Positions 26,336 to 40,814 of a DNA stretch of 64,000 bases are shown one piece after another (position 1 is the first letter of the stretch; every line of letters begins with the position of its first letter). Location of the stretch: positions 1 through 64,000 of the forward strand of contig JAAYVF010000006.1 in the NCBI GenBank assembly GCA_012517325.1. The letters are read 5' to 3'. The stretch comes from Myxococcales bacterium. Lineage in GTDB: Bacteria; Lernaellota; Lernaellaia; Lernaellales; Lernaellaceae. A program made the translations under genes and the position numbers. The notes beneath the pieces are model-generated. The model did not search any database. It was given only the letters and a program-made list of their open reading frames with translations, and was not told the DNA's origin.

Positions 26336-26784
26336 GGACGATATCCCAGGCGAATGAAAAAATAACCGCCAGTAAAAACAGGGCCGGTGACGTGAAAATT
26401 AGGCAAAATCATGTAATAATAGGCGTTTTTGCTATGTTCTTTCAGTGTCAGCCTCGTTCATGGCAATCCAACTTTCGGCGATTTTTACTGCTTTGGCTGG
26501 TGTTGTCAATAGAGAATCCGTGCGGACAGCCGGCGGAAAATTCGGATTTACTTGGATTTACTTTGAAAACCATGAGTCGTCGAGAAGGGGTGAATCAATC
26601 GGCCGATAAATCGGCTCGCCGGGAAATCCAACTTGACAGCTATATACTTATATTATAGCTATGAAGGTGTACATGGGCTGAATGCAACTTTCTCGAAAAA
26701 CGACATTTTAAGCTTTGACGGTCTCGCGGCGACCGTGACCAGACGAACGATTTTCCCGTGCGATGAACTCTCCGGAGGGCGGCA
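26336..26784. other. Intergenic region with promoter/operator of the catabolic cluster
   Basis: A 449-base divergent gap. Apart from the promoter and inverted repeat at 26633-26660 I find nothing convincing. Short open frames here (for example 26317-26658) lack ribosome sites and familiar composition. Confidence 0.5.
26633..26660 (+). promoter_or_regulatory. Promoter overlapped by a dyad, candidate PadR operator
   Basis: A perfect TTGACA (26633-26638) runs into an inverted repeat: AGCTATA at 26638-26644 and TATAGCT at 26654-26660, nine bases apart. TATAGC at 26654 could serve as a -10 box (15-base spacing). Binding of a dimer here would block RNA polymerase. The PadR-family gene at 27245 is the obvious candidate. 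Confidence 0.5.
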
Positions 26785-27225
26785 ATGGGCAAATACTATC
26801 GCGACGCGGCAAACCTGTACGAGATCTACGGCTACTTCCTCAGCCGCATTTTGCAAGACGAAAAAATCGGCCGGAAAATGGCCAAGGCTGGAATCATCAT
26901 CCGCTTCATCTATACCGACCCCGATGCCGAGGTCACGATCGACCTGAAAAACCCGCCGGCCCAGCCAGGTTATCACGGCACTTTCTATCTGGGGCCGTGC
27001 GAATTGAAACCCGACGTTTGGACCAAACAGTCGGCCGACCATTCGCACAGCTTCTGGCACGGTCACGAAAACCCGGTCGCCTCGGTGGCGCGCGGCCAGG
27101 TCAAACAGGGCGGCAACATCGTGGCGATGCTCAAGCTGCTGCCGGTCGTCCGGCCCGCCTTCGCGATGTTCCCGGTCATTCTAAAGGAAATGGGGTTGGA
27201 TGATTTGATCCTGGTCAAGAGCTGA
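26785..27225 (+). CDS. SCP2 sterol-binding-like protein
   Basis: This is a 146-residue protein with the SCP2 fold pattern. IIIRFIYTDPDAEVTIDLKN corresponds to the strand pair that in the family reads as -x-F-x-x-x-(D/G)-. It is followed by GTFYLGPCELKPDVWTKQSA, the D-x-x-x-x-x-S/A-D helix, and then VARGQVKQGGNIVAMLKLLP with the G-K-x-x-x-x-G-(D/N) loop. Such domains bind hydrophobic ligands such as sterols or acyl chains. First gene of the catabolic cluster, after a GGAGGG ribosome site. It suggests that the substrate or an intermediate is lipid-like. Confidence 0.7.
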   Translation: MGKYYRDAANLYEIYGYFLSRILQDEKIGRKMAKAGIIIRFIYTDPDAEVTIDLKNPPAQPGYHGTFYLGPCELKPDVWTKQSADHSHSFWHGHENPVASVARGQVKQGGNIVAMLKLLPVVRPAFAMFPVILKEMGLDDLILVKS

Positions 27226-27244
27226 TCGAGGGAAGGTGACGGCC

Positions 27245-27796
27245 ATGTCGATCAAATACGCCATTCTGGGGTTGCTGCAATACAAAGACCTGCACGGCTA
27301 CCGCATCAAAAAGCTCATCGAACGCGACTTCGGTTTCATGTGGACGGTCAATTACGGCCAGATCTATCCGGCGCTCAAGGGGATGCTGGATGAAGGGCTG
27401 GTCACGATGAAGGTCGTGGAAAAGTCGGACTCGCCGAACCGCAAGCTGTATTCGATCACCGAAAAAGGCCGGCAAAGCTTCCTGTCGTGGCTGGAAGCCG
27501 AACCGGAGCGGCGGCTGTTCATCCGCGATCCGTTTCTGCTGCGGTTTCCGTTCTTCGCCTCGACCGACGCGGAACGGGTGCTCGCGGGCATCGACGAGCA
27601 GATCGGTTTTTACGGCCGGCAACTGGCGCTCCGCAAAAAATTTATCGACAACCGGCGGCGCGGCGACCGGTACGTCCGCCTCGCCACCGACCTGGGCATC
27701 CGCTTTAACGAGATGATTCTCGGCTGGCTCGGTGACGCTCGGGAGGAAATCGTCAAGAGCCTTCCGGCGCAACCGGCGCGGGCACAGAACGGCTAA
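27245..27796 (+). CDS. PadR-family transcriptional regulator
   Basis: This is a 183-residue protein. The winged helix opens MSIKYAILGLLQYKDLHGYR with IKKLIERDF and YGQIYPALKGMLDEGLVTMK, the standard PadR signature, and NRKLYSITEKG forms the wing. A C-terminal Vir-like helical dimerisation region follows (INGFYGRQLALRKKF-type). The ATG at 27245 has GGAAGG eight bases upstream. PadR proteins usually repress nearby catabolic or stress genes in response to aromatic or hydrophobic ligands. Here it sits second in the cluster downstream of a promoter with a dyad. Confidence 0.88.
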   Translation: MSIKYAILGLLQYKDLHGYRIKKLIERDFGFMWTVNYGQIYPALKGMLDEGLVTMKVVEKSDSPNRKLYSITEKGRQSFLSWLEAEPERRLFIRDPFLLRFPFFASTDAERVLAGIDEQIGFYGRQLALRKKFIDNRRRGDRYVRLATDLGIRFNEMILGWLGDAREEIVKSLPAQPARAQNG

Positions 27797-27806
27797 GGGA
27801 GAGGGC

Positions 27807-28799
27807 ATGGAATACGGGGGCATCACGCTGGTGACGGGCGCGGCGGGCTTCATGGGGCGCCATGTCGTCAAGCACCTGGCCGAAAACGGCGCCAAGGTCC
27901 GCGCCACGGCCCGCCCGAAGAAAGACACCTCGTTCTTCGACCGGTTGGGCGTCGAGTTCGTGCCGGCCGACCTGACCAAGCCCGAAACGCTGCCGCGCCT
28001 GTTCGAAGGAAACGTCGAGCGGGTGTTTCACCTCGGCGCGATCTGCAATTTCTCGACGCCCTACGAAGACCTGCGCCCCACCAACGTCCTCGGCGTGGAG
28101 CACCTCACCCGCCTGGCGCTGGAGGCCAAGGTGAAATGCTACGTCCACGTCGGTTCCACCAGCGTTTACGGGCCGTATCGCGGCCGGCCGTTCGTCGAGG
28201 ACGCCCCGCGCGAACCGCAGGACAACTACGGCCGCAGCAAGCGCGACGGTGAAAACGTCGTCTGGCAACGCATCGCCGCGGGGCTGCCGGCGATCATCAC
28301 TCGCCCCTGCACGGTTTACGGCCCCGGCTGCAACGACGGCGCCGGCAAGGCGTTTTCGCGGCCCACATCGATCACCGCCATCCCCGGCGACGGCCGCCAG
28401 CGGTTGTCCAACGTGCGGGCCGAGGACGTCGCCATCGCGGTGGAGCACCTGTCGCGGCAACCGGCGGCATTCGGCCGGGCGTTCAACCTCGGCGACGGCT
28501 GCTACCCGACGCTGGAAGAAGCGCTGCGGCTGGCCGCCGAGGCCTTCGGCCGGAAACCGCCGACGCTGCATCTGCCGCTGCCGCTGGTGAAATCGCTGGC
28601 GCGGCTCGACGGTCTGATCGCCGGTTGGCGCGGGCGGATTCCCGACCTCGAATCCGACGCGGTGGCTTACCTGGATCGCGACTACATCGTGGATACCTCG
28701 GCCCTGACGGCGACGGGCTGCCGGCTGCGGTATCCGGATTTCTCGGCATCGATGCGGCAGATCGGGCAATGGTGGCGGGAACACGGCGCGGCAAGCTGA
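27807..28799 (+). CDS. NAD(P)-dependent epimerase/dehydratase (extended SDR, 3beta-HSD-like)
   Basis: This is a 330-residue protein. The nucleotide-binding loop is LVTGAAGFMGRHVVKHLAEN, the acidic middle ATARPKKDTSF, and the catalytic Ser is in HVGSTSVYGPYRG with YGRSK (Y-x3-K) about 30 residues on. RPCTVYGPGCND is the conserved R-P-x-x-x-Y-G-P segment. Extended SDRs of this type act on nucleotide sugars or on 3-hydroxysteroids/isoprenoids; the cluster context favours a lipid-like alcohol. I chose the ATG at 27807 (GGGAGAGGGC before it) rather than an upstream codon inside the PadR gene. Confidence 0.85.
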   Translation: MEYGGITLVTGAAGFMGRHVVKHLAENGAKVRATARPKKDTSFFDRLGVEFVPADLTKPETLPRLFEGNVERVFHLGAICNFSTPYEDLRPTNVLGVEHLTRLALEAKVKCYVHVGSTSVYGPYRGRPFVEDAPREPQDNYGRSKRDGENVVWQRIAAGLPAIITRPCTVYGPGCNDGAGKAFSRPTSITAIPGDGRQRLSNVRAEDVAIAVEHLSRQPAAFGRAFNLGDGCYPTLEEALRLAAEAFGRKPPTLHLPLPLVKSLARLDGLIAGWRGRIPDLESDAVAYLDRDYIVDTSALTATGCRLRYPDFSASMRQIGQWWREHGAAS

Positions 28800-28821
28800 G
28801 GCGCGCCAAAGGAGCGTAAGG

Positions 28822-29637
28822 ATGGATGTAATCGTCATTACGGGCGTCGCGCAAGGGATGGGTCGCGAGGTGGCCAAGCTGCTGGCGGCCGGCGGCGATG
28901 CGATCGCCGGCTTCGACGTGGACGGCGCGGGCATCGAATCGCTGCAAAAGGAATTGCCGGGCGATCATCTGCTGACCCGGCTGGACGTCACGGACCTCGC
29001 GGGCATCGCCGCGTTCCGCGACCGGGTGTTGGAAAAATACGGCCACGTCGACACCGTGCTGTCCAACGTGGGCATCGGATTTTTCGGCCCCTTCGAGGAA
29101 GTGAATCTGCCCAAGGCCGCCAAGTGCCTGGAGATCAACGTGATCGGCACCGCCGCCATCTTTCAGGCCTTCATTCCGCGGATGCGCGAACGCCGCGCCG
29201 GCAAGTTGATCGCCGTCTCCTCGCTGGTCGGGCAGATCCCGTTCCCCTTCGAATCCATCTACACGGCGAGCAAGTTCGCGGTCGAAGGCCTGGTGCTTTC
29301 GATGCGGCTGGAACTGGAGCCGTTCGGCATTCGAATGGCCTTGATTCAACCGGCGCAGGTTTCGACCTCTTTCGCGGCCAAGATTCATTTTCTGCCGCCG
29401 GAGGGCTCGCCGTACCGCGACCGGGTCAACCGCTTCATCAACAAGGACAACGAGCTGATCAAGACCGCGCCGAACCCGCTCCAGGCGGCCAAGGTGATTT
29501 ACGGCGTGGTGAAAAATCCCGCGCCCAAGTTGCACAACCAGATCGATTTCAAGAGCAGGTTTTTCATGGGGCTGAACCGGGTGCTGCCGACCAAGCTGCG
29601 TGACCTGATTCTGCTCGACACGATGGACATCAAATAG
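28822..29637 (+). CDS. Short-chain dehydrogenase/reductase
   Basis: This is a 271-residue classical SDR. The cofactor loop is VIVITGVAQGMGREVAKLLA, the structural Asn motif is LSNVGIG, the catalytic Ser is in IAVSSLVGQ, and Tyr/Lys are in IYTASKFAVEG (Y-x3-K). Asp37-type residue AGFDVDG predicts NAD(H) preference. It would oxidise or reduce a secondary alcohol. It follows the epimerase by 22 bases and precedes the glycyl radical enzyme, so it probably works on the same compound. Confidence 0.88.
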   Translation: MDVIVITGVAQGMGREVAKLLAAGGDAIAGFDVDGAGIESLQKELPGDHLLTRLDVTDLAGIAAFRDRVLEKYGHVDTVLSNVGIGFFGPFEEVNLPKAAKCLEINVIGTAAIFQAFIPRMRERRAGKLIAVSSLVGQIPFPFESIYTASKFAVEGLVLSMRLELEPFGIRMALIQPAQVSTSFAAKIHFLPPEGSPYRDRVNRFINKDNELIKTAPNPLQAAKVIYGVVKNPAPKLHNQIDFKSRFFMGLNRVLPTKLRDLILLDTMDIK

Positions 29638-29676
29638 CGGCGCGCGAACGATCAACAATTTCGGGAGGCGTTTCCC

Positions 29677-32049
29677 ATGCCGGCAATCGCAACGATCAGG
29701 GGTACGGAACGGGTGCGGCGCTTGCGCCGGCGCATCATCGACGCGCCGCGCGAGGTCTGCGTCGAACGCGCCCGCTATCTGACGCAGGCCATGGCGGAAA
29801 ACTGGAACGAACCGGCGCTGACGCGAATGAGCCGGGCGTTCTCGCACGTCCTGGGAAACATCAGCGTCATCATCCGCGACGACGAGCTGATCGTCGGTTG
29901 CCGCACCAGCCGGCTCAACGGCGCGCCGCTGTTTCCGGAAAACAAGAGCGGCTGGATCGAAGGGGATCTGGAAACCTTCAACGACCGCGAATTGCAGCGG
30001 GTGACCATCACGCCGGAACAGCAGCGCGAGCTGCGCGAGGACATCCTGCCGTTCTGGTCCGGCAAGACCGTGCAAAACCGCTTCGAGGAACTGGCGCCGC
30101 CCGACGTGCTCGCCGACATGGACAAGTACATCTTCACCATGATTCTGGAAATCACCTACGGCGTAGGCCATTTCACGATGAACCACGAAAAAATGCTGCG
30201 CGTGGGCCTCGCCGGCATCATCGCCGAGGCCGAGGAGCATTGGCGCCGGCTGTCGGCCGCGGAGCGCGCCGGTGAAAAAGGGCTCTTTTACCAGGCGTTG
30301 ATTTGCTCGTGCCGAGCGCTGGTGCGCTTTGCCAATCGTTACGCCGAACTGGCCGAAAAAATGGCCGGGGAAGCGGCCGATCCCCGGCGGGCCGCCGAAC
30401 TGAAAAGCATCGCCGCGATCTGCCGCCGCGTACCCGAGCATCCGGCGACTTCCTTCCGCGAGGCGATCCAGGCGGTTTACTTCACGCACCTGGCGGCGCA
30501 GATCGAATCCGGCGGTAACTCCATTTCCATCGGGCGGATCGATCAGATTCTGCATCCTTATTTTCAAAAGGATGCGCTGGCCGGCGCGATCACGCCGGAC
30601 GAGGCCGAGGAACTGCTGTCGCTGCTGTACCTCAAAACCAACGAAATCTGGAACATCCTGGAGGAAGCGTTCATTCCCGGTGGCGAAGGGCCCGAGGGCA
30701 AAACCACGCAGAATGTCGTGGTCGGCGGCGTCGGACCGGACGGCCGGGACGCCACGAACGAACTGAGCTATCTCGCGCTGGACGCGTACGCCGCGGTGCA
30801 GACCGTTCAGCCTAATTTCGGCGTGCGGCTCGGCCCGGACGCGCCCGCCGATTTTGTCGCCCGCGCGGTGCAATACGCCCGCGACGGCGTGCTGCTGCAC
30901 CTGTTCAACGACCGGGTGATCATCGACTCGCTGCAAAAAGCGGGGCATACGCTGCCGGACGCGCGCAATTACGGGGTCGTCGGCTGCCTCGAGCCCAACG
31001 CGCAGGGAAAGACCTACGGCTCGACCTTCGCGGTGCAATTCAGCGGCATCAAGTGCCTGGAACTGGCGCTGAGCAACGGCATCGACGGCGTCTTCGGCAA
31101 TCAGGCGGGCCTCGAAACCGGCGACCCGGCGGCTTTCGCCTCGTTCGACGAGGTTTGGAACGCCTATCACGCCCAGTCGGCGCATTTCCTGAAGCAGATG
31201 GTCCGGGGCATGGCCGCGATGGATCAGGCGGTGGCCGAACTGGCGCCGTCGCCGTTCGCCTCGGCGATGATCGAGGGGCCGATGGCGAAGGGGCTCGACC
31301 TGACGCGCGGCGGGGCCGTCTACAACTCGACCGGCGTGGAATTGATCGGTTTCGCCAACGTGGCCGACAGCCTGTACGCGATTCAAAAGGGCGTGTTCGA
31401 GGATCGCGTGCTGACGATGGCGGAACTGGCCGCTTTCCTGGCCGACGATTGGGACGGCGCCGAGGAAAAGCAGGCCTATCTGGCGAACAAGATCGCCAAG
31501 TTCGGCAACGACGACGACGCGGTCGACGCCATGGGCGCCCGGGTCGTCGCGCATTTCTGCGACGAGGTGCTGAAACACGAGAACTACCGCGGCGGCCGCT
31601 TCTGGCCGGGGATTTTTTCGGTCGGGTTCCACGTGGCGATGGGCGCGTTCGCCGGCGCCAGCCCCGACGGCCGCCCCGCCGGCGGCATCCTGGGCAATGG
31701 CATCACGCCCGCCAACGGCCGGGCGCTCAAGGGGCCGACGGCGGTGTTCAATTCGGTGACCAAGCTGCCGCTCGGCCGCATTCACAACGGCGTGAACCTG
31801 AACATGCGGTTCAACCGCGAGTATTTGCGGCCGGATGTCCTGCAGGCGCTGGTGCGGGCCTATTTCGCCAAGGGCGGCGTGCAGGTGCAGTTCAACATGA
31901 TCGACTCGGAACAGTTGCGCCAAGCGCAGGCTCACCCCGACGAGTACCGCGACCTCGTGGTGCGGGTCAGCGGCTATTCGGCACTGTTCACGGGGCTGAG
32001 CGAAACGGCGCAGAACGAAATCATCGAGCGCACGGAGTATCAGGCCTGA
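29677..32049 (+). CDS. Glycyl radical enzyme, dehydratase/lyase class
   Basis: This is a 790-residue protein of the pyruvate formate-lyase superfamily. The thiyl Cys is in VVGCLEPNAQGKTYGS (about residue 437) with Glu at 439, and the glycyl radical is in RVSGYSALF (Gly near 766). One Cys followed by x-Glu, and this spacing and length, match glycerol/diol dehydratase, choline lyase and hydroxyproline dehydratase rather than PFL (Cys-Cys). A His in GVGHFTMNHEK (about 165) fits the substrate pocket. The segment ESGGNSISIGR has Asn where those enzymes usually have His, so the substrate is probably different. No activating radical SAM enzyme is adjacent. Oxygen-sensitive. Confidence 0.9.
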   Translation: MPAIATIRGTERVRRLRRRIIDAPREVCVERARYLTQAMAENWNEPALTRMSRAFSHVLGNISVIIRDDELIVGCRTSRLNGAPLFPENKSGWIEGDLETFNDRELQRVTITPEQQRELREDILPFWSGKTVQNRFEELAPPDVLADMDKYIFTMILEITYGVGHFTMNHEKMLRVGLAGIIAEAEEHWRRLSAAERAGEKGLFYQALICSCRALVRFANRYAELAEKMAGEAADPRRAAELKSIAAICRRVPEHPATSFREAIQAVYFTHLAAQIESGGNSISIGRIDQILHPYFQKDALAGAITPDEAEELLSLLYLKTNEIWNILEEAFIPGGEGPEGKTTQNVVVGGVGPDGRDATNELSYLALDAYAAVQTVQPNFGVRLGPDAPADFVARAVQYARDGVLLHLFNDRVIIDSLQKAGHTLPDARNYGVVGCLEPNAQGKTYGSTFAVQFSGIKCLELALSNGIDGVFGNQAGLETGDPAAFASFDEVWNAYHAQSAHFLKQMVRGMAAMDQAVAELAPSPFASAMIEGPMAKGLDLTRGGAVYNSTGVELIGFANVADSLYAIQKGVFEDRVLTMAELAAFLADDWDGAEEKQAYLANKIAKFGNDDDAVDAMGARVVAHFCDEVLKHENYRGGRFWPGIFSVGFHVAMGAFAGASPDGRPAGGILGNGITPANGRALKGPTAVFNSVTKLPLGRIHNGVNLNMRFNREYLRPDVLQALVRAYFAKGGVQVQFNMIDSEQLRQAQAHPDEYRDLVVRVSGYSALFTGLSETAQNEIIERTEYQA

Positions 32050-32080
32050 CGCCCGGCCGGGCGGCCGGCGGAGGAGTGGC

Positions 32081-33016
32081 ATGTCCAAGACCATGACGAT
32101 GACGAAGGCGGTCGCGCAGTTCGTGCACGACGGCGATTTTCTGTTTATCGGCGGCTATATCTGCCGCACGCCGTTCGCCGCGATCCACGAGATCATCCGG
32201 CAGGGTAAGAAGAATCTGACGATCACCCGCAGCAACGCCGCCGACGATTTCGACCTGCTGATCGGGGCGGGACTGGTGAAGCGCTTCATCGCGACGTTTC
32301 TATCGCTCGGTTTTTACGGCCTGGGGCGCTGTTACCGGCGCAGCCTGGAGCAGGGGATTCCGCACCGGATCGAGGTCGAGGAATACACCAACCTGTCGCT
32401 GCCGATGATGCTCATGGCCGGTTCGATGGGCATGCCCTTCGTGCCGGTGAAGGACATGGCCGGTTCGGACCTGCTCAACGTGAAATCGTTTCTGGGCGAA
32501 GGCAAGTACAAGGTGATCGATTCGCCGTTCGACGGCCGGAAGACCGTGTTGGTGCCGGCGTTGAATCCGGACCTGGCCATCATTCACGTGCAACAGGCCG
32601 ACGAGGACGGCAACGCCCAGATGTGGGGCATCGGCGGCGATTGCCAGGTCGGCGCCATGGCGGCGAAAAAAGTCATCGTCAGTTGCGAGCGGATCGTCAG
32701 CCGCGAAACCGTCGGCAAGGATCCGTCGCGGACCATCGTGCCGGATTTCAAGGTCGTCGCGGTGGTGGAGGAACCGTTCGGCGCGCACCCCGGCTACACG
32801 CCCGGCTTTTACGACGTCGATTTCGCGTTCGGCAACCTTTACAAAGACGCCTCCGCGACCGTGGAGGGATTTCAAAAATTTCTCGACGAATGGGTCTTGG
32901 GCGTGCCGAGCCGCACCAAGTACATCGAGCATTACATCGACAAAATGGGGTACGCGGCCTATCGCAACCTGCAAGCCAAATTCGATTACGGCTACCCGGT
33001 CAGTTACTCGTACTAG
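32081..33016 (+). CDS. CoA-transferase, alpha subunit (glutaconate CoA-transferase-like)
   Basis: This is a 311-residue class I CoA-transferase alpha subunit. The N-terminal GDFLFIGGYICRTPFA carries the G-x-G-G-like CoA loop; LTITRSNAADDFDLLIGAGL, MAGSMGMPFVPV and PDLAIIHVQQADEDGNAQMW follow. It resembles GctA. With the next gene it would move CoA from acetyl-CoA or another donor onto a carboxylate produced in the pathway. It starts 31 bases after the glycyl radical enzyme. Confidence 0.85.
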   Translation: MSKTMTMTKAVAQFVHDGDFLFIGGYICRTPFAAIHEIIRQGKKNLTITRSNAADDFDLLIGAGLVKRFIATFLSLGFYGLGRCYRRSLEQGIPHRIEVEEYTNLSLPMMLMAGSMGMPFVPVKDMAGSDLLNVKSFLGEGKYKVIDSPFDGRKTVLVPALNPDLAIIHVQQADEDGNAQMWGIGGDCQVGAMAAKKVIVSCERIVSRETVGKDPSRTIVPDFKVVAVVEEPFGAHPGYTPGFYDVDFAFGNLYKDASATVEGFQKFLDEWVLGVPSRTKYIEHYIDKMGYAAYRNLQAKFDYGYPVSYSY

Positions 33017-33051
33017 GCGTCGCCGCGACGCCGCTCAGTGGGAGTGGAAAA

Positions 33052-33852
33052 ATGGTTGAACATGCCGCCGATTACATCAAGCCGGAACTGATGGCCTGTT
33101 GCGGCGCGCGGGAAATCCAGGACGGCAACATCGTGCTGGTGGGCACCGGTTTTCCCACCATGTCGGCGAACATCGCCCGGTACACTCACGCGCCCAACGC
33201 GCGGCTGATGCAGGAGTCGGGCGTCTACGACGCGCAGCCGAAGCGCCCCGCGCTCTCGGTCGGCGACCCGTGCCTGAATCCGGGCGCCGCGATGGTCGGC
33301 GGCCTGCTCGAAATCATGGGAATGTTTCTGCAGGGAGGCTGCGTCGACGTGGGCTTTCTGGCGGGCTCCCAGGTCGACAAATTCGGCAACATCAACACCA
33401 CTGTCATCGGCGATTACCACCATCCGAAAAGCCGGCTACCGGGCAGTGGCGGCGCCAATCCGATCGGTTCGCTGGCGAAAAAGACGCTGATCATCGCGCT
33501 GCACGACACCCGCCGGCTGACCGAAAAAGTCGATTTCATCACCACGCCGGGTTACATCGACGGCGCGGGGGCGCGCGAAAAATGGGGCCTGCCGCCGAAC
33601 ACCGGGCCCGAGGTCATCATCACCAACAAGGCCGTGCTGCGGTTCGACCGGGCCACCGGCGAAGCCTATCTGGCGACCTATCACCCCGGCACGACGGTCG
33701 ACGAAGTCGTCAAGAACACGCCGTGGGATTTGAAAATCGCCGACGACGTGCACGAAACCGAGCCGCCGCGCGCCGCCGAGATCCGCGCGCTGCGTGAAAT
33801 CCTCGATCCCAATCGGATGATCAAGATTTACGAAAGCCGCGGCTACGTTTGA
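33052..33852 (+). CDS. CoA-transferase, beta subunit (glutaconate CoA-transferase-like)
   Basis: This is a 266-residue protein. The ATG at 33052 follows GGGAGTGG. LMQESGVYDAQPKRP carries the likely catalytic Glu (E-S-G), which forms the glutamyl-CoA thioester in this family. QVDKFGNINTTVIGDYHHPK, then GSGGANPIGSLAKKT are typical of GctB-like subunits. The open frame extends about 140 codons upstream, but that part overlaps the alpha subunit out of frame and is not real. Confidence 0.85.
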   Translation: MVEHAADYIKPELMACCGAREIQDGNIVLVGTGFPTMSANIARYTHAPNARLMQESGVYDAQPKRPALSVGDPCLNPGAAMVGGLLEIMGMFLQGGCVDVGFLAGSQVDKFGNINTTVIGDYHHPKSRLPGSGGANPIGSLAKKTLIIALHDTRRLTEKVDFITTPGYIDGAGAREKWGLPPNTGPEVIITNKAVLRFDRATGEAYLATYHPGTTVDEVVKNTPWDLKIADDVHETEPPRAAEIRALREILDPNRMIKIYESRGYV

Positions 33853-33871
33853 GCCGCGATCGACGGGAAGG

Positions 33872-35245
33872 ATGCCGATGGACGAAACGAAAAAACTGGC
33901 CGATTTCGCGGCGGCGATCGCCTACGACGAATTGCCGGCGGCGGTCGTCGAAAAGGCCAAGCATTGCCTGCTCGATTTTTTCGCCAATATCTACGGCTCG
34001 CTGCAAATCGAAGAGGTCGCCCGCGTGGTCGCGTCCGTGCGCGCGCAAGGCGGACCGGAAACCGCGACGGTTTTAGGCGCCGGCTTTGCGACCGGCGTCC
34101 AGCCGGCCGCTTTTCTGAATGGCGTTCTGGCCGAAGCCCTCGAGGCCCAGGACGGATTGCGGTTCGGCGGCAACCACCCGGGCGTCGCCGTCATTCCGGC
34201 GGCGTTGGCGTTGGGCGAGCAACGGCGCCTCGACGGCAAACGGCTGATCGAAGCGATCGTCGCCGGCTATGAAGTGGCCGGCCGCGTCGCCGCCGCCATT
34301 CATCCGCACCACACGCTGTCCGGCTTTTTGCCGACGGGAACCTGCGGCGCGTTCGCGGCCGCGGCGGCGGCGGCGAAAATGCTGGGGCAGGACACCGCGC
34401 GGACGCTGCAGTCGCTGGGCATCGCCGGCTACCTCGCGCCGCTTTCGATGGCCGAACACCTGATGGGCGGATTCACCGCGAAAATCCTGCAGGGCGGGCA
34501 GGCGGCCGGCGCCGGCCTGATGGCGGCCGATCTGGCCGGGGCGGGGCTGACGGGCGCGCCCTATGTGCTCGAGGGGTCGCACCTGAACGGCGGTTTTACG
34601 CAGATCACCACGAAGAACAACGCCAACCTGGAACGGATCACCCAGGGCCTCGGCGCGGCGTACTCGATCAGCGACATTTATTTCAAGCCTTATACCGCCT
34701 GCCGCCACACGCACGGCAGCGCCCAGGCCGCGCTGGCCTTGAGCCACGAACATTCTATTGCGCCCGGCGACATCGCGGCGGTGGACGTTTACACCTACAT
34801 GATCGCGGCGATCGCGGTCGGCAAGGGCGTCGAGAAAAACAGTTCCTTCGTCGCGGCGCAATTCTCCATTCCCTACGTGGTCGCGGCTTGCCTGATCGAC
34901 GGCGACATGGGGCCGTTGCAGTTCCGCCGCGAACGCATCGCCGACGAGGCGATTCTCGGCCTGGCGAAAAAAGTCACGGTTCACGCCGATAGCGAATTGA
35001 GCGAGCGTTATCCCGCGCAAACGGCGAGCCGCGTGGAAATCAAACTGGCCGACGGCCGCACGCTTACGCGGCAAGTCGACGAACCCAAGGGCGACCCGCG
35101 CGATCCGATGACCGCGGCCGACCTGGAAGCCAAGTTGCAACGTTTTGCCCCGGCGGACAAGAAAAACGGAACGGCGGAAATCGCCGCGTTGACGCTGGCG
35201 CTCGAGCAAATCGACGACCTTCGCCGATTGACATCCATAATTTAA
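33872..35245 (+). CDS. MmgE/PrpD-family protein
   Basis: This is a 457-residue protein of the MmgE/PrpD family (2-methylcitrate dehydratase, cis-aconitate decarboxylase and relatives). It has the N-terminal LADFAAAIAYDELPAAVVEK helix pair, GTCGAFAAAAAAAKMLGQD, the active-site-region YFKPYTACRHTHGSAQAALA, and QFSIPYVVAACLIDGD. It would hydrate/dehydrate or decarboxylate a hydroxy-acid or a cis-enoic acid. No citrate synthase or AcnD is nearby, so this is not a methylcitrate locus. Its role in this cluster is open. Confidence 0.85.
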   Translation: MPMDETKKLADFAAAIAYDELPAAVVEKAKHCLLDFFANIYGSLQIEEVARVVASVRAQGGPETATVLGAGFATGVQPAAFLNGVLAEALEAQDGLRFGGNHPGVAVIPAALALGEQRRLDGKRLIEAIVAGYEVAGRVAAAIHPHHTLSGFLPTGTCGAFAAAAAAAKMLGQDTARTLQSLGIAGYLAPLSMAEHLMGGFTAKILQGGQAAGAGLMAADLAGAGLTGAPYVLEGSHLNGGFTQITTKNNANLERITQGLGAAYSISDIYFKPYTACRHTHGSAQAALALSHEHSIAPGDIAAVDVYTYMIAAIAVGKGVEKNSSFVAAQFSIPYVVAACLIDGDMGPLQFRRERIADEAILGLAKKVTVHADSELSERYPAQTASRVEIKLADGRTLTRQVDEPKGDPRDPMTAADLEAKLQRFAPADKKNGTAEIAALTLALEQIDDLRRLTSII

Positions 35246-35257
35246 CGAGGTGGGTCC

Positions 35258-36424
35258 ATGGATTTTTCATTGAACGACGAACAACAAATGCTGGTGGATA
35301 TGTTGCGCAAGATGGGCCAGCGCGAAAATTTCAAGGATCTGGCCGTCGAGATCGACCGCACCGGAAAATTTCCGAAGCAACTGATGAAGAAGTACGCCGA
35401 CCTGGGTCTGCTGGGCATGACGCTTTCGCCCGAGTACGGCGGCGGCGGTCAGCCGGGCATCAACGCGGTGTTGGCCATCGAGGAACTGGCCAAGTTCAGC
35501 CCGATGATCGCCGCGCCGGTGTTCGAATCGAATGTCGGGCCGGTCAAGGTGATCAACAACTTCGGCACCGAGGAACAAAAACGGCAGATCATCCCCAACG
35601 TCTGCAAGGGCGAGATGAGCGTCTCGGTATCCATGACCGAGCCAGACGCCGGGTCCGATCTGGTTTCCCTGACCACGAAGCTGACGCCGGACGGTGACGA
35701 CTATCGGCTCAACGGCCGCAAGGCGTTCATCACCGGCGGCGAGGAAGCCAGCCATTACTTCGTCTATTGCCGGTTCGGCGACAAGCCCGGCTACGGCGGC
35801 ATCGGCGGCGTCCTGGTCGAAAAAGGCATGCCCGGTTTCAGCTTCGGCAAACAGGAAGAGTTTATGGGCTTGCGCGGAATGCCCTCGTGCGACCTGATTT
35901 TCGAGGACGTGCGCGTGCCGAAGGAAAACGTGGTCATTCAAAAGGGCCAGTTCAAGGATCTGATGACGACCTTCGACCTGGAGCGTTGCGGCAACGCGGC
36001 GATGTGCCTGGGCACGGCCGGCGGCGCGCTGGAAGAGGCCCGGAAATACGCCGGCGAACGCAATGCCTTCGGTAAACCGATCTGCGAATTCCAGGACATT
36101 CAATTCAAGATCGTCAACATGGCGATGAAACTGGACGCGGCCCGGCTGCTCGTCTATCGCGCGGCGGTCGGCGCCGGCCGCGGCTTCCCGTCGATGTACG
36201 AATCGGCGATGGGCAAATGCTTCGCCAACGAAATGGTCGCCGAGGTGACCGACGCGGCAATGCTGGTTTTCGGCGGCTACGGCTACAGCCGCGAGTTCCC
36301 GTTGGAGCGCATGCACCGCGACGCGCTGGCGTGGCGCGTGGCGGGCGGCACCGTACAGATGCTGCGGATCACCATGGCTTCGATCCTGTTCGCCCGCCGG
36401 TTCAATCAGCGCACGGGCGAATGA
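35258..36424 (+). CDS. Acyl-CoA dehydrogenase
   Basis: This is a 388-residue flavoprotein with the signatures VSVSMTEPDAGSDL and RNAFGKPICEFQDIQFK. The C-terminal segment reads VAGGTVQMLRIT: the Glu of the usual Y-E-G-T motif is absent, as in isovaleryl/long-chain-type enzymes where the base is a Glu on another helix, probably that in TFDLERCGN. That placement is from memory and worth modelling. It introduces an alpha,beta double bond into an acyl-CoA. Start 13 bases after PrpD. An electron-transfer flavoprotein must come from elsewhere. Confidence 0.9.
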   Translation: MDFSLNDEQQMLVDMLRKMGQRENFKDLAVEIDRTGKFPKQLMKKYADLGLLGMTLSPEYGGGGQPGINAVLAIEELAKFSPMIAAPVFESNVGPVKVINNFGTEEQKRQIIPNVCKGEMSVSVSMTEPDAGSDLVSLTTKLTPDGDDYRLNGRKAFITGGEEASHYFVYCRFGDKPGYGGIGGVLVEKGMPGFSFGKQEEFMGLRGMPSCDLIFEDVRVPKENVVIQKGQFKDLMTTFDLERCGNAAMCLGTAGGALEEARKYAGERNAFGKPICEFQDIQFKIVNMAMKLDAARLLVYRAAVGAGRGFPSMYESAMGKCFANEMVAEVTDAAMLVFGGYGYSREFPLERMHRDALAWRVAGGTVQMLRITMASILFARRFNQRTGE

Positions 36425-36472
36425 GGGCGCGCCGCGCGCTGGTCGCGGGCCAGAAAACAAGTCGAGGAAAAC

Positions 36473-38461
36473 ATGAAACACGCGGTCATGGGCAAGGTCC
36501 TTTGGGTCGATCTGACGACGGGCCGGTTCACGCCGGAAACGATCGCCGACGAGCTGTACGAAGCTTATCTCAGCGGGGTCGGGCTGGGCGCGCGCCTGCT
36601 TTACGACCGGATTCCGGCGGGCGCCGATCCGCTGGGCCCGGATAACATCCTGGGCGTCACCAGCGGTTTTCTCTGCGGCACCGGCGCGTTGTTCATGGGG
36701 CGCTGGATGGTGATGAGTAAAAGCCCGCTGACCGGCGGCTGGGGCGATTCCAACTGCGGCGGCAATTTCTCGCTGGCGATCAAACGCACCGGTTTCGACG
36801 CCATTTTCTTTTCCGGCATCAGCCCCCGGCCGGTCTACCTCAAGATTGTCGGTGGCCAGATCGAGCTGGTGGACGCGGCCCATTTGTGGGGCGTCGACGC
36901 CATCGAGGCCGAGGAAAAGCTGATCGCCGAATGCGGCGATAGCAAGGCCAAGGCGATCACCATCGGCCCGGCCGGCGAAAAGCTCAGCCTGATCTCGGGC
37001 ATCGTCAACGACGGCGGACGGATCGCCGCGCGGTCGGGCCTGGGCGCGGTCATGGGCAGCAAACGGCTGAAGGGCGTCGTGCTGGCCGGTAAAACGCCCC
37101 CCAAGGGCGCCGACGCGGAAAAAATCAAGGAACTGAACAAGAAGTTCATGAAGTGGTTCAGCAAAGGCGCCGGCCTGCAAAAGGTGCTCACCGGCGGCTT
37201 TCTCAATTTCTTCGCCCGGTTCCAACGGGTTTCGCCGATCGCCATGGCCGTGGCGCCGGATTTATTCAAGGCCGTCATGAGAAAATTCGGCACCATCAGT
37301 TCGAACGTGCTTTCCTCCGAGGGCGGCGATTCGCCGGTGAAAAACTGGAAGGGATCGGGCACGAAGGATTTTCCCATCGGTACGCACGCCGACCGGCTCA
37401 ATCCGCAAAAAATCATCGACCGCGAAACGAAAAAATATCATTGCTATTCGTGCCCTCTGGGCTGCGGCGGCGAGGTGACCCTCAAAAACGGCGGTAAAAG
37501 CCACAAGCCGGAATACGAGACCACCAGCGCCTTCGGCTCGCTGCTTCTGAACAACGACATCGAAGCGCTGTTTCAGGTCAACGACCTGCTCAACCGCGCC
37601 GGCATGGATACCATCTCTGCCGGCGGCACCGCCGCTTTCGCCATCGAATGCCTGGAAGAGGGCATCCTGACCAAGGAAGATTTGGACGGCCTGGATCTCA
37701 AGTGGGGCAACGCCGAAGCCGTCGTCGAATTGATCAAAAAAATGATTCGCCGGGAGGGCATCGGCGACGTATTGGCCGACGGCGTGAAGGTCGCCGCGGC
37801 GAAGATCGGCAAGGACGCGCACCGCTTCGCGATCCATGCCGGCGGGCAGGAACTGCCGATGCACGATTCGCGCTTCGACCCCGGGTTCGCCATCGCCTAT
37901 GCCTTGGAACCGACGCCGGGCCGGCACACGAATCACGGTTACCAATGGATCGATCTGTTCGCCTTGCACAAGATTTTCCCCGGTCTGCCGAAAACCAAAC
38001 CCTTGTCGCTCGTCAAATCGAAATACGATCCGACCGACAAGTGGATCCTGCAGGTGGCGGCCAGCAAATACATGCAATTGATGAATGCCGCCGGCGGCTG
38101 TTTGTTCGGCGCCGAGTTGGGCGGCCATCTGCCGATCATCGAATACCTGAACGCCGCCGCCGGTTGGGACCATCCGCCGCATTACTACCTGCAAGTCGGC
38201 GAACGGATTCAAACCTTGCGGCAAGCCTTCAATTTCAAACACGGCAAGCAACCGTTAAAAGATTTTGCCCTGCCGGCCCGCGCCACGGGTGAAGAGCCGC
38301 TGACTTCCGGACCGATGAAGGGCGTCAAGCTGGATATGGAACGCCTGACGCTCGATTTCCTGCAAGGGATGGGTTGGGATCCGCAAACGGCCAAGCCGAC
38401 CAGACAAAAACTGGAAGATTTGGGCCTCACCGACGTCGCCGCCGACATCAACGCCGTTTGA
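36473..38461 (+). CDS. Aldehyde ferredoxin oxidoreductase (tungsten type)
   Basis: This is a 662-residue protein of the AOR family. The N-terminal domain has GKVLWVDLTTGRFT, SGVGLGARLLYDRIP and SPLTGGWGDSNCGGNF. The [4Fe-4S] cluster ligands are CYSCPLGC (C-x2-C-x3-C) and a Cys in AAGGCLFGAE. HAGGQELPMHDSRFDPG is the conserved cofactor-proximal loop. The enzyme oxidises aldehydes to carboxylates with ferredoxin, or reduces acids, using tungstopterin. Next to a dehydratase-class glycyl radical enzyme it is well placed to take an aldehyde product. Last gene of the cluster. Confidence 0.93.
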   Translation: MKHAVMGKVLWVDLTTGRFTPETIADELYEAYLSGVGLGARLLYDRIPAGADPLGPDNILGVTSGFLCGTGALFMGRWMVMSKSPLTGGWGDSNCGGNFSLAIKRTGFDAIFFSGISPRPVYLKIVGGQIELVDAAHLWGVDAIEAEEKLIAECGDSKAKAITIGPAGEKLSLISGIVNDGGRIAARSGLGAVMGSKRLKGVVLAGKTPPKGADAEKIKELNKKFMKWFSKGAGLQKVLTGGFLNFFARFQRVSPIAMAVAPDLFKAVMRKFGTISSNVLSSEGGDSPVKNWKGSGTKDFPIGTHADRLNPQKIIDRETKKYHCYSCPLGCGGEVTLKNGGKSHKPEYETTSAFGSLLLNNDIEALFQVNDLLNRAGMDTISAGGTAAFAIECLEEGILTKEDLDGLDLKWGNAEAVVELIKKMIRREGIGDVLADGVKVAAAKIGKDAHRFAIHAGGQELPMHDSRFDPGFAIAYALEPTPGRHTNHGYQWIDLFALHKIFPGLPKTKPLSLVKSKYDPTDKWILQVAASKYMQLMNAAGGCLFGAELGGHLPIIEYLNAAAGWDHPPHYYLQVGERIQTLRQAFNFKHGKQPLKDFALPARATGEEPLTSGPMKGVKLDMERLTLDFLQGMGWDPQTAKPTRQKLEDLGLTDVAADINAV

Positions 38462-38471
38462 GCGGGGACAG

Positions 38472-38567: not shown

Positions 38568-39215
38568 ATGAAACATGAGCATCTGTTGCTGCTATTGGTC
38601 CTCGGCAACTTCATCTTCGGGGCGATCTTTTGTTTTTCCTGCGTGGACGGCGAGGACGGCCGGGACGGCCGTGACGGCGAGGTCATCGGCGCCGCGGACG
38701 ACGACCATGACGGCGGCCCGGATGACGAAACGGAAGAACCGGACGACGATGGCGGTGGCGACGACGACCAGACCGGCGATGACGACGGCACCGGCGACGA
38801 TGACGACGGCCTGACCGCCGATGATCTGCCCTACGCCGACGACTGCCCCGATCTCGCGGACTGCGTCGTGGCGGCCTGTCAGGCGACTCCCGATCCGGAC
38901 AGCTACGCGCTGCTGAAATGCACTTTGCAGAATTGTTCCGATCCGTACGCGGCCTGTTTCGGCCCTTACGGCGACGAGGCCTGCGTCACCGTGCTCAAAT
39001 GCCTCGAAGCCTGCCTGCCGGCCGATTGCCTCCAGGACTGCATGGCGCCGGCTTCCTACGAATCGCTGCTGCAATTCGCCGATGCCGGCATCTGTGTGGA
39101 AGAGAATTGTCCGGAAGCGCTGGCGGATCCGCTGCACAACATCGGTTGCTTCCTGGGCCCCTGCAACGCCCCGATTGCCGTCTGTTGCGGCGGTTCCGTT
39201 CTCGGGTGCATGTAA
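38568..39215 (+). CDS. Secreted Asp-rich, Cys-rich protein (probable lipoprotein)
   Basis: This is a 215-residue protein. A hydrophobic signal ends in IFCFSC, and the Cys is followed at once by collagen-like triplets GEDGRDGRDGE. An Asp/Gly linker of about 45 residues is next. The C-terminal 110 residues hold 18 Cys in pairs (ADC, AAC, QNC, CLEACLPADCLQDC), indicating a compact disulfide-rich domain. The lipobox is not ideal. No family recognised. Its start is 107 bases after the AOR gene, and the flavoprotein gene follows 48 bases on, whose product has the same post-Cys triplets. Confidence 0.65.
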   Translation: MKHEHLLLLLVLGNFIFGAIFCFSCVDGEDGRDGRDGEVIGAADDDHDGGPDDETEEPDDDGGGDDDQTGDDDGTGDDDDGLTADDLPYADDCPDLADCVVAACQATPDPDSYALLKCTLQNCSDPYAACFGPYGDEACVTVLKCLEACLPADCLQDCMAPASYESLLQFADAGICVEENCPEALADPLHNIGCFLGPCNAPIAVCCGGSVLGCM

Positions 39216-39263: not shown

Positions 39264-40814
39264 ATGGAAGAAAAAGCGGGAAAGCCGATCAGCCGGAGAA
39301 AGTTTTTGTTCTGGGGCGCGGTGGCCACGACCGGCGTCTTGGTCGGTTGCGCGGGCAGCGACGGCAAGGACGGCCGGAACGGCAAGGACGCGGTTTTGTT
39401 CTCGGTCGATTGGGATGAAGAAACCGACGTCGTCGTCATCGGTGCGGGCGGTGCGGGCCTGGTGGCGGCCATCGAAGCCAAAAGCAAGGGCGCGGGCGTT
39501 ATCGTGCTGGAAAAATCCGACAACCTCGGCGGCAACACCGCTTTTTCCGGGGGTGTCGTCCAGGCCTCGGGCACCAAATACCAGCAGCAGTTCGGCATTT
39601 CCGGCGATACGCCGGAAAAGCATTACCAATATTGGCTGGAAGCCGGCGAAGGCGTCGCCGACGCCGAACTGGTCCGCACGATGGCCTACAATTCCGCCGG
39701 CGATCTGGACTGGCTGGTGGGGATGGGCCTGACCATCACCAAGATCTACGCGATCGATCCGATCCCTTACATCGATCCCGAGCTGATTCCGGCGCGGTTG
39801 CACGTCGCCGACGGTCTCGGCGGCGGCTATTTCAGCGTGCTCAAGGAACAGGCGCAGAAATCCCAGGTGGATATCCGCATCGAAAGCCCGGTCACGCAGT
39901 TGATCGCCGACGCGGACAAACGGGTGGTCGGCGTTTGCGTCGGCGACGGCGAGGATGCGTTGTACATCAAGGCGCGCCGGGCCGTAGTCGTAGCCGCCGG
40001 CGGTTTCGATTGCAACGACGAGCTGGCGAAAGCCTATTCGCCGCAATTGTACAAGGATCTGGAAAACCAACTGAGCCTGGCCTGCACCGGCAACACCGGT
40101 GATGTTTTGAAAATGGGCCTGGCGATCGGCGCGGCGCCAGCCGGCTTCGGCGGCACGATCGCCTATCCGGCGATGCGCATCGGGCGAAACGAGGCCGATC
40201 TGCCGATTCCCGGCATCTGGGTGAACAAGTACGGCCAGCGGTTCGTCAACGAAGCCGCGCATTACGGCTACGTCGCGCGTGCGGTGTTCGACCAGGAAGA
40301 ACACATCGCCTGGGCGGTGTTCGATGAAAACGTCCGGCAAATGGGCGGTTCCGTGATCGGCGGCTGGAGCGACGACCTGGCGGCGGAAATCGCCAGCGGC
40401 AAGATTCTCACCGCCGACACGCCGGAAGCGTTGGCCGACGCCATGGGCGTGAATGCCGGGCAGTTGGCGCTGACCCTGCAAAAATGGAACGCGGACATCG
40501 CCGACGAAGACGCGGATACCCTCTATCAAAAAGCCGTCGCGCTCCAGGCGCTCGACACGCCGCCGTACTACGCGACCTCGGTATATTTCTACAATGTCGG
40601 TTCGGTCGGCGGCTTGAAGATCAACTCCAAGGCCCAGGTCATCGGCAATGACGGCGAGCCGATCATGGGACTTTACGCCGCCGGAATGGCCGCCGGCGGT
40701 TTCATCGGTCCTTACTATCCGGGCAGCGGCACGGCCGTGACCGCGACGATCGTCTTCGGCCGCCTGGCCGGCCGCAATGCCGCGGCGGAAACCGCGGTCG
40801 CCGACGGCGATTGA
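39264..40814 (+). CDS. Tat-exported FAD-dependent oxidoreductase (fumarate reductase/KstD-like flavoprotein)
   Basis: This is a 516-residue protein. The N-terminus has a twin-arginine motif ISRRKFLFWGA and a lipobox L-V-G-C, so it is probably folded in the cytoplasm and anchored outside as a lipoprotein. GSDGKDGRNGKDA triplets follow. The FAD loop is DVVVIGAGGAGLVAAIEAKS, and NLGGNTAFSGGVVQASGT matches the fumarate reductase/urocanate reductase/3-ketosteroid dehydrogenase family; the end has GLYAAGMAAGGFIGPYYPGS. It lacks its own haem or FMN domain. It could serve as a terminal reductase for an enoate-like electron acceptor. Confidence 0.85.
   Translation: MEEKAGKPISRRKFLFWGAVATTGVLVGCAGSDGKDGRNGKDAVLFSVDWDEETDVVVIGAGGAGLVAAIEAKSKGAGVIVLEKSDNLGGNTAFSGGVVQASGTKYQQQFGISGDTPEKHYQYWLEAGEGVADAELVRTMAYNSAGDLDWLVGMGLTITKIYAIDPIPYIDPELIPARLHVADGLGGGYFSVLKEQAQKSQVDIRIESPVTQLIADADKRVVGVCVGDGEDALYIKARRAVVVAAGGFDCNDELAKAYSPQLYKDLENQLSLACTGNTGDVLKMGLAIGAAPAGFGGTIAYPAMRIGRNEADLPIPGIWVNKYGQRFVNEAAHYGYVARAVFDQEEHIAWAVFDENVRQMGGSVIGGWSDDLAAEIASGKILTADTPEALADAMGVNAGQLALTLQKWNADIADEDADTLYQKAVALQALDTPPYYATSVYFYNVGSVGGLKINSKAQVIGNDGEPIMGLYAAGMAAGGFIGPYYPGSGTAVTATIVFGRLAGRNAAAETAVADGD

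Follow-up and report, generated by a model that had tools for sequence, protein, structure and literature searches.

The glycyl radical enzymes (GREs) described so far that come closest to the one considered here are the B12-independent diol dehydratases, namely the glycerol dehydratase of Clostridium butyricum (1r8w) and the 1,2-propanediol dehydratases (Roseburia 5i2a, and 9rco), together with trans-4-hydroxy-L-proline dehydratase (HypD). GRE eliminases are marked by a Cys-x-Glu (CXE) motif, which also occurs in the C-N and C-S lyases CutC and IslA, and His160 and Glu436 of HypD are described as essential (PMC7077986). Here we describe a GRE gene (29677..32049, + strand, 790 aa) in a stretch of 64,000 nucleotides, hereafter the window, which comprises positions 1 to 64,000 of contig JAAYVF010000006.1 (assembly GCA_012517325.1) of a Lernaellota genome. 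The gene belongs to a block of ten genes that fill positions 26785-38461 of the + strand, confirming what an initial annotation of this DNA had observed, and the coordinates and Pfam matches agree with the enzyme classes that it had named. We propose that the GRE is of the eliminase type and represents a new subclass within a kind of enzyme already known, judging from its sequence. The ten genes may constitute one operon, probably PadR-controlled, that would serve to degrade, without oxygen or a microcompartment, a hydroxylated compound of lower polarity, probably a branched or bulky one, a reading that we put forward tentatively, as possible but somewhat short of probable.

The GRE combines a PFL-like domain (PF02901, 649 bits, besides PF01228) with a glycyl-radical loop, and all 16 aligned sequences of its clade retain Gly766, Cys437, Glu439, His165 and Ser282, the Cys437-x-Glu439 being the CXE motif and His165 and Glu439 the equivalents of His160 and Glu436 of HypD. 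The fold, the CXE loop, His165, Ser282 and the glycyl loop are common to the window enzyme and the diol dehydratases, and CXE and the essential His are common to it and HypD, whereas HypD has Asp where the clade has Asn281 and the window block contains no proline-pathway gene. The substrate pocket departs from that of the diol dehydratases, as do the gene neighbours. According to pairwise alignments, the three solved diol dehydratases share Asn156, His281, Tyr/Phe339, Asp447 and Tyr640 (C. butyricum numbering), which we take to line the polyol site, and a Kosakonia GRE adjoining pduA/pduB has Asn, His, Phe, Asp and Tyr at these positions. The window clade instead carries Leu157, Asn281, Thr344, Phe451 and Phe647, so that all five positions differ in 16/16 sequences, and the diol-to-aldehyde step put forward in the initial annotation is left unsupported. 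In a comparison with 14 other GREs, Thr344 and Phe647 were found in none, Phe451 in one, Leu157 in two and Asn281 in three, and none had the five-residue combination. Three of the changes are towards less polar residues (Asn to Leu157, Asp to Phe451 and Tyr to Phe647), and the changed pocket therefore speaks against a small polyol and, to a lesser degree, in favour of a substrate of lower polarity.

The window GRE scored over the cut-off of the PFL2/glycerol dehydratase subfamily model TIGR01774 (686.6 vs 678.2 bits) and far under the cut-off of every equivalog model listed, for instance HypD with 509 bits vs a cut-off of 1100. Its other NCBIfam scores were 535 bits for sulfopropanediol dehydratase, 454 for CutC and 371 for indoleacetate decarboxylase, and the nearest solved GREs by sequence were glycerol dehydratase (554 bits) and the 1,2-propanediol dehydratases (530 and 514 bits). 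For the predicted structure (pLDDT 76.7, with loops around residues 326-344 and 439-450 under 50), the closest folds among the matches listed were those of 1,2-propanediol and glycerol dehydratases (Z 38.1-39.6, rmsd 2.4-2.5, 740-754 aligned residues), and HypD (Z 37.9) and CutC (Z 37.8) were tied with the lower diol dehydratase matches. Because its nearest folds are diol dehydratases with HypD and CutC close by, we assigned the GRE to the eliminase branch, in agreement with the CXE motif and with the dehydratase class that it had first been given. In a tree of 30 GRE sequences, the 16 clade members formed one group (support 100/100), the ties of which to other GREs were poorly resolved.

The window genome encodes six GRE genes in all, on contigs 6, 7, 8, 62, 94 and 119 (nine match rows); the five others reach no listed GRE equivalog cut-off, and CTD replaces the CXE motif in the one on contig 62. 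Locus L006 holds an open frame of 1132 aa (L006:583-3978, +) that covers a complete GRE as well as a part resembling a radical-SAM activase (TIGR02494, above the cut-off with 208 bits) and is either an activase-GRE fusion or a missed boundary. The GRE of locus L002 (L002:778-3867, +) is extended at its N-terminus by some 230 residues that have no Pfam match and looked like sterol carrier protein 2 (SCP2) by eye; this link was not confirmed, as hhalign gave a probability of 0.3% against the small protein of the window block and profile and PDB searches gave no SCP2 hit.

The ten genes of the block encode, in order, a small SCP2-like protein, a PadR-family regulator with a Vir_act_alpha_C domain (27245..27796, +; PF03551, 66.9 bits), an extended and a classical short-chain dehydrogenase/reductase (SDR), the GRE, the CoA-transferase subunits A and B (CoTA and CoTB), an MmgE/PrpD-family enzyme, an acyl-CoA dehydrogenase (ACAD) and an aldehyde:ferredoxin oxidoreductase (AOR), separated by gaps of 19, 10, 22, 39, 31, 35, 19, 12 and 48 bp. 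The conservation of this block was followed in 16 relatives' loci, 14 from a scan of a genome collection and two from a search of the window's own phylum. The scan gave 16 loci, 14 of which hold a GRE that is 62-71% identical to the window GRE; L022 and L023, with distant GREs (35-40%), were excluded from the clade counts, and L021, with a partial GRE, was kept in the gene counts and excluded from the GRE alignment. Within the phylum, seven genomes were searched at E<=1e-150 and three had the GRE, the window's own included, the others being G006 (78% identity) and G004 (68%). By record title or tree label, the hosts are Chloroflexota, Myxococcota and Thermodesulfobacteriota (delta-proteobacterial), Actinomycetota, Binatota and Zymogenus, besides the two further genomes of the window's phylum.

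Using tblastn at E<=1e-20, the GRE was found in all 16 loci, the classical SDR, CoTA, CoTB, MmgE/PrpD and ACAD in 12 each, the extended SDR in 10, the SCP2-like protein and PadR in eight each and AOR in one; these counts are lower bounds, several loci being cut by contig ends inside the block, and the ACAD counted for L013 is just 54% identical and lies on the opposite strand. All nine genes other than AOR occur together in six of the loci (L012, L014, L018, L024, L028 and L029), a comparison of neighbourhoods that bears out the catabolic operon content initially noted, and the remaining loci have one to seven genes; the Chloroflexota loci L009, L010 and L020 hold five to seven of the nine. 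The GRE is the only block gene in L019. PadR, where present, is always accompanied by the extended SDR, and the SCP2-like gene lies downstream of ACAD in L012, L014, L016, L018 and L024, so the gene set is kept while its order shifts among relatives. G006 has the same ten genes in identical order, its MmgE/PrpD gene (L028:11273-12640, +) being split by one in-frame stop that reflects either an assembly error or decay, and G004 has nine block genes, with AOR not adjoining. Since the block recurs across the 16 relatives' loci, it is not a chance arrangement.

Comparison of the window with G006 indicated purifying selection on nine block genes (dN 0.08-0.20, dS 0.68-1.07), and MmgE/PrpD was compared with G004 alone (dN 0.33, dS 1.07) because of the in-frame stop in the G006 copy. 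Promoter-like matches (4 vs 2.6 in shuffled sequence) and terminator-like matches (12 vs 16.2) were near the shuffled expectation. The two + strand promoter-like sites, at 26392 upstream and at 38471 downstream of the block, are compatible with a single transcript, without proving it. The same gene combination was not found among the titles and abstract beginnings of the open-licence PMC papers listed; the benzene 'Magic' cluster (PMC13101534) and a limonene GRE (PMC12583861) concern, as far as the available portions of these papers go, other systems.

Directly downstream of the GRE lie CoTA (32081..33016, +) and CoTB (33052..33852, +), each with a CoA_trans domain, and their closest solved relative is the glutaconate CoA-transferase GctAB (1poi). 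CoTA matched 1poi_A with 190 bits, followed by 5mzw (85 bits) and 6con (78 bits), and CoTB matched 1poi_B with 207 bits, the next entries reaching at most 49. The E55-S56-G57 motif of CoTB, with the catalytic Glu of class I glutaconate-type CoA-transferases, is kept in 13/13 rows, and the two-subunit CoA-transferase of the first reading thus stands. Lower-scoring structure matches of both subunits bear labels that we take to be of the IpdAB or AibAB type, and 6con is presumably IpdA; IpdAB-type ring hydrolases are not known to carry the transferase Glu. A ring hydrolase of this kind was ruled out, given the scores of GctA and 6con and the Glu that is kept, and because GctAB is closest and the ESG Glu is retained, the sequences make CoTAB likelier a transferase than an IpdAB- or AibAB-type enzyme. 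The neighbours of the window genes differ from those of GctAB, which we take to belong to glutamate fermentation.

The MmgE/PrpD-family enzyme (33872..35245, +; PF03972, 188 bits, and PF19305, 143 bits) retains His102, Glu91, Lys204 and Lys272, and Glu88, Thr148 and Leu153 replace His85, Tyr145 and His150 of IDS epimerase in 13/13 rows. It therefore does not have the residue set given for methylsuccinate isomerase (His, acid, His, Tyr, His, Lys, Lys), and the known MmgE/PrpD members are all said to use substrates with a 1,4-dicarboxylate backbone (PMC12290011). The altered set suggests another kind of acid as the substrate. A CoA-transferase, an MmgE/PrpD isomerase and a methylsuccinyl-CoA dehydrogenase, the same three enzyme kinds, are clustered for itaconate and methylsuccinate (PMC12290011). 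The window trio differs in following a GRE and in an MmgE/PrpD without two of the His and the Tyr base. The transferase of the itaconate cluster is also of another family than CoTAB.

The ACAD (35258..36424, +; Acyl-CoA_dh N, M and C domains) has AGGT at the usual position of the J/K-loop Glu in 12/12 readable rows and Glu242 on helix G in 13/13, as do isovaleryl-CoA dehydrogenase (IVD) and long-chain acyl-CoA dehydrogenase (LCAD), which have a helix-G Glu and none in the J/K loop. The helix-G base is reported to give IVD a wider pocket for a beta-branched acyl chain (PMC5798300), and LCAD to accept branched and bulky acyl-CoAs, including a sterol-derived one (PMC11153573). Pro82 (13/13) and Pro87 (12/13) of the window ACAD lie near the helix-E proline of LCAD by numbering alone. 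In contrast to IVD and LCAD, its closest family models are acryloyl-CoA reductase (the best NCBIfam model, 342 bits vs a cut-off of 640) and 3-sulfinopropanoyl-CoA desulfinase, both below cut-off.

The AOR (36473..38461, +) has both AFOR domains (N, PF02730, 228 bits; C, PF01314, 326 bits) and 1aor as its nearest solved structure (308 bits). That it adjoins the block in the window was correctly noted at first, but among the 16 relatives' loci it does so only in G006 (79% identity), which is also the only one of nine genomes searched, the window genome included, with a copy above 54% identity; AOR is thus peripheral, a lineage-specific end of the block and not a core member. Other partners also vary. 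L024 has genes for an aldehyde dehydrogenase (ALDH) and an iron alcohol dehydrogenase between the classical SDR and the GRE, and different lineages may supply aldehyde oxidation by different enzymes. A major facilitator superfamily (MFS) transporter gene lies immediately 3' of the GRE in L012, L016 and L024 (88-90% mutual identity) and may carry an organic anion; the L024 copy, the only one scanned, was most like models for carriers of conjugated bile salt (172 bits vs a cut-off of 400) and of lactate/oxalate, none of which it passed. A radical-SAM activase was found near the GRE in four of the 15 relatives' loci tested (L011, L012, L013 and L024), and the 6.3 kb contig of L010 has no activase-size extra open reading frame (ORF). 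Shell genes of bacterial microcompartments (BMCs) were searched as PF00936 only, in 17 genomes; 16 of these gave no match, the window genome among them, so that their absence, first remarked for the cluster, extends to the whole genome and sets the window block apart from microcompartment-linked GRE loci.

Two 'alcohol dehydrogenases' had been named in the initial annotation; both are SDR oxidoreductases with Tyr-x3-Lys, one being an extended SDR of the NAD-dependent epimerase/3beta-HSD type (27807..28799, +; PF01370, 114 bits, and PF01073, 51.5 bits) and the other a classical SDR (28822..29637, +; PF00106, adh_short, 142.7 bits). Tyr141 and Lys145 of the extended SDR are kept in 10/10 readable rows, and Ser134, Tyr147 and Lys151 of the classical SDR in 13/13. 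The best NCBIfam model of the extended SDR was HpnA (102 bits, cut-off 368), and SdmB came third (62 bits, cut-off 600). The small protein of 146 aa at the start of the block (26785..27225, +), which had been labelled SCP2-like, has no Pfam match at E<=0.001, and the SCP2 family is absent even at E<=1, a level at which HMMER filters drop most weak matches. The two best fold matches of its model were the sterol-carrier entries 1wfr (Z 5.0) and 8af3 (Z 3.6), and UbiJ SCP2 matches (Z 2.8 and 2.5) stood among unrelated entries with Z of at most 3.2, all Z levels that are commonplace for the tool. Profile matches were to 3cnu and 3bn8, each a 'putative sterol carrier protein 2' (E 0.14 and 0.17), and no second copy was found in the window genome at E<=0.1. 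The label is thus plausible but weak on the basis of the model, and the protein may carry a hydrophobic ligand.

The EBDH-type alpha subunit of L013 was used as a query against the 17 genomes (E<=1e-60), and hydroxylases of the EBDH/S25DH type were found in three metagenome-assembled genomes (MAGs), namely G009 from Binatota (21 matching stretches) and the delta-proteobacterial G008 (8) and G010 (5); in part, these stretches are pieces of a single gene. None was found in the remaining fourteen genomes. These three are exactly the three of the 17 without a CoTA match: of the 14 genomes behind the scan loci, 11 have CoTA at >=72% identity, and none was found at E<=1e-60 in G008, G009 and G010, which are possibly incomplete. 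SDR orthologs are present in all three. In L013, the genes for an activase, EbdB and EbdA follow an SDR ortholog (65%) in the same orientation, in L019 an EBDH gene lies about 5 kb off on the opposite strand, and L011 has no EBDH gene within its contig. The cholesterol degrader Sterolibacterium denitrificans is described as having eight S25DH-like alpha subunits (PMC6016249). The GRE clade thus also occurs in genomes rich in hydroxylases of the type that uses water on hydrocarbons or sterol side chains, which is an association between genomes and not a pathway, and represents at most two independent cases, since the GRE tree places L013 and L019 as sisters.

Downstream of the block, a FAD protein with a Tat-like signal is encoded at 39264-40814 (+); its flavocytochrome c model score of 262 bits is just under the cut-off of 285, 3-ketosteroid-dehydrogenase models are weaker, and no counterpart was seen by eye among the longer ORFs of L028 and L029. 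Proteins predicted to be exported, in which a Cys close to the N-terminus precedes Asp-rich linkers, are encoded at 38568-39215 (+) of the window, L028:17176-19026 (-) and L029:1837-3318 (+), in three genomes of the window's phylum.

We suggest the following route for the operon. The SCP2-like protein would assist substrate handling, and the two SDRs would adjust a hydroxyl group in its oxidation state or stereochemistry. Because the block has no activase and the closest match in the window genome to the L011 activase (58%) adjoins another GRE on contig 119, we infer that a radical-SAM activase whose gene lies elsewhere would activate the GRE in trans. The Cys437 thiyl radical would then abstract a hydrogen, and Glu439 and His165 would help to eliminate a neighbouring group, most likely water, to give a carbonyl. 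The aldehyde would be oxidized to the acid by AOR here and by ALDH/ADH in a relative, MmgE/PrpD would work at the alpha carbon of the acid as an epimerase or dehydratase, the CoA-transferase would form the CoA ester, and the helix-G-base ACAD would form the enoyl-CoA, followed by beta-oxidation with genes located elsewhere. The sequence of aldehyde, acid, acyl-CoA and enoyl-CoA outlined in the initial annotation can be retained in this conditional form, and its reading as a whole is partly supported. From the sequences, our best guess for the substrate is a compound that is less polar and branched or bulky, as the pocket, the ACAD, the weak SCP2 fold and the three transferase-less relatives with multiple EBDH/S25DH-type hydroxylases would fit it. 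The hydrophobic, terpenoid- or steroid-like substrate that had been suggested is compatible with the ACAD base, the SCP2 fold and the hydroxylases, the last of which belong to relatives.

Several observations weigh against this reading. The overall nearest structures are the 1,2-propanediol and glycerol dehydratases, which leaves room for a small diol, and the changes of His to Asn281 and of Tyr/Phe to Thr344 are not towards less polar residues. The binding of bulky substrates by LCAD is credited to a helix-E proline and not to the base (PMC11153573), and enzymes for alpha-branched acyl-CoAs (IBD and methylsuccinyl-CoA dehydrogenase) are described as retaining the usual base (PMC5798300). The SCP2 fold was obtained with a low-confidence model (pLDDT 60.5), for which the best Foldseek match had E 2.1, nothing being significant. 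No clear part in the suggested route falls to MmgE/PrpD, the window block carries no radical-SAM activase of its own, and EBDH-type hydroxylases are absent from the window genome at E<=1e-60, so that this link concerns relatives. Moreover, BMC shell genes are present in G018, the Ardenticatenales MAG to which L010 belongs (three PF00936 matches on contig 266); these are not on the contig of its GRE block, and its CoTA is on contig 103.

The nearness of glycerol and 1,2-propanediol dehydratases in sequence and fold, together with acryloyl-CoA reductase as the best ACAD model, would suit a diol dehydratase route without a microcompartment, in which the GRE converts glycerol or 1,2-propanediol to the aldehyde, AOR forms the acid, CoTAB the CoA ester and ACAD performs an acryloyl-CoA-type step. 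We consider this unlikely, as the five pocket positions common to diol dehydratases are changed throughout the clade, such a route offers no evident role for the SDRs, the SCP2-like protein or MmgE/PrpD, and the window genome lacks shell genes. Nearly as unlikely, in our view, is a GRE that acts as a lyase or decarboxylase, cleaving a C-C, C-N or C-S bond and feeding the same acid-to-enoyl-CoA module. CutC (C-N) and IslA (C-S) also carry CXE, and a pocket combination shared with none of the 14 GREs compared would allow for other leaving groups; an arylacetate decarboxylase is disfavoured by the model scores, that for indoleacetate being lower than those of the eliminases.

A further possibility is fumarate addition, by which the GRE would make a substituted succinate that MmgE/PrpD epimerises, CoTAB activates and ACAD oxidises, as in methylsuccinate use. 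It draws on the occurrence of a CoA-transferase, MmgE/PrpD and ACAD together in the itaconate/methylsuccinate cluster and on the likeness of CoTAB to a dicarboxylate CoA-transferase. However, BSS and MASS are described as binding fumarate by an Arg at Cys+15 (BSS R508/C493, MASS R492/C477; PMC12358834), and this position is Ala452 in 16/16 clade sequences. In the MmgE/PrpD enzyme, moreover, two His that belong to the carboxylate-binding set are gone, as is the Tyr that serves as second base, and the sole other small block gene is the SCP2-like one, BSS small subunits not having been searched elsewhere in the genome. Fumarate addition was therefore rejected on account of the missing Arg and the altered MmgE/PrpD pocket, and we regard it as highly improbable. 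The block might also be a biosynthetic or lipid-modifying operon, as the two SDRs, one of them weakly like HpnA and SdmB, and the SCP2-like protein would allow, but the CoA-transferase, the ACAD, the AOR, ALDH and ADH partners and the MFS transporter of one lineage point to degradation and make this very unlikely.

The breakdown of a less polar hydroxylated compound therefore remains the reading that we prefer. A bolder form of it, quite unlikely as matters stand, is that this GRE is the first of a subclass of radical eliminases acting on branched, hydrophobic hydroxylated side chains of the isoprenoid or steroid type, in which the branch would become an aldehyde and then a branched acid, to be adjusted at the alpha carbon by MmgE/PrpD, activated with CoA and desaturated by the helix-G-base ACAD. 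If true, this would make the GRE reaction the radical-based equivalent of the ATP-dependent 25-hydroxy shift in anaerobic cholesterol degraders, and in three relatives the GRE would pair with multiple S25DH/EBDH-type hydroxylases. GREs perform some of the hardest chemistry of anaerobes, and the fixed pocket signature and recurring neighbours define here a clade in lineages known mostly from metagenomes, so that assaying a single member could give all of them their annotation. Should the operon act on a steroid or terpenoid derivative or on a branched lipid derivative, it would partly fill a gap in what is known about the oxygen-free breakdown of such carbon.

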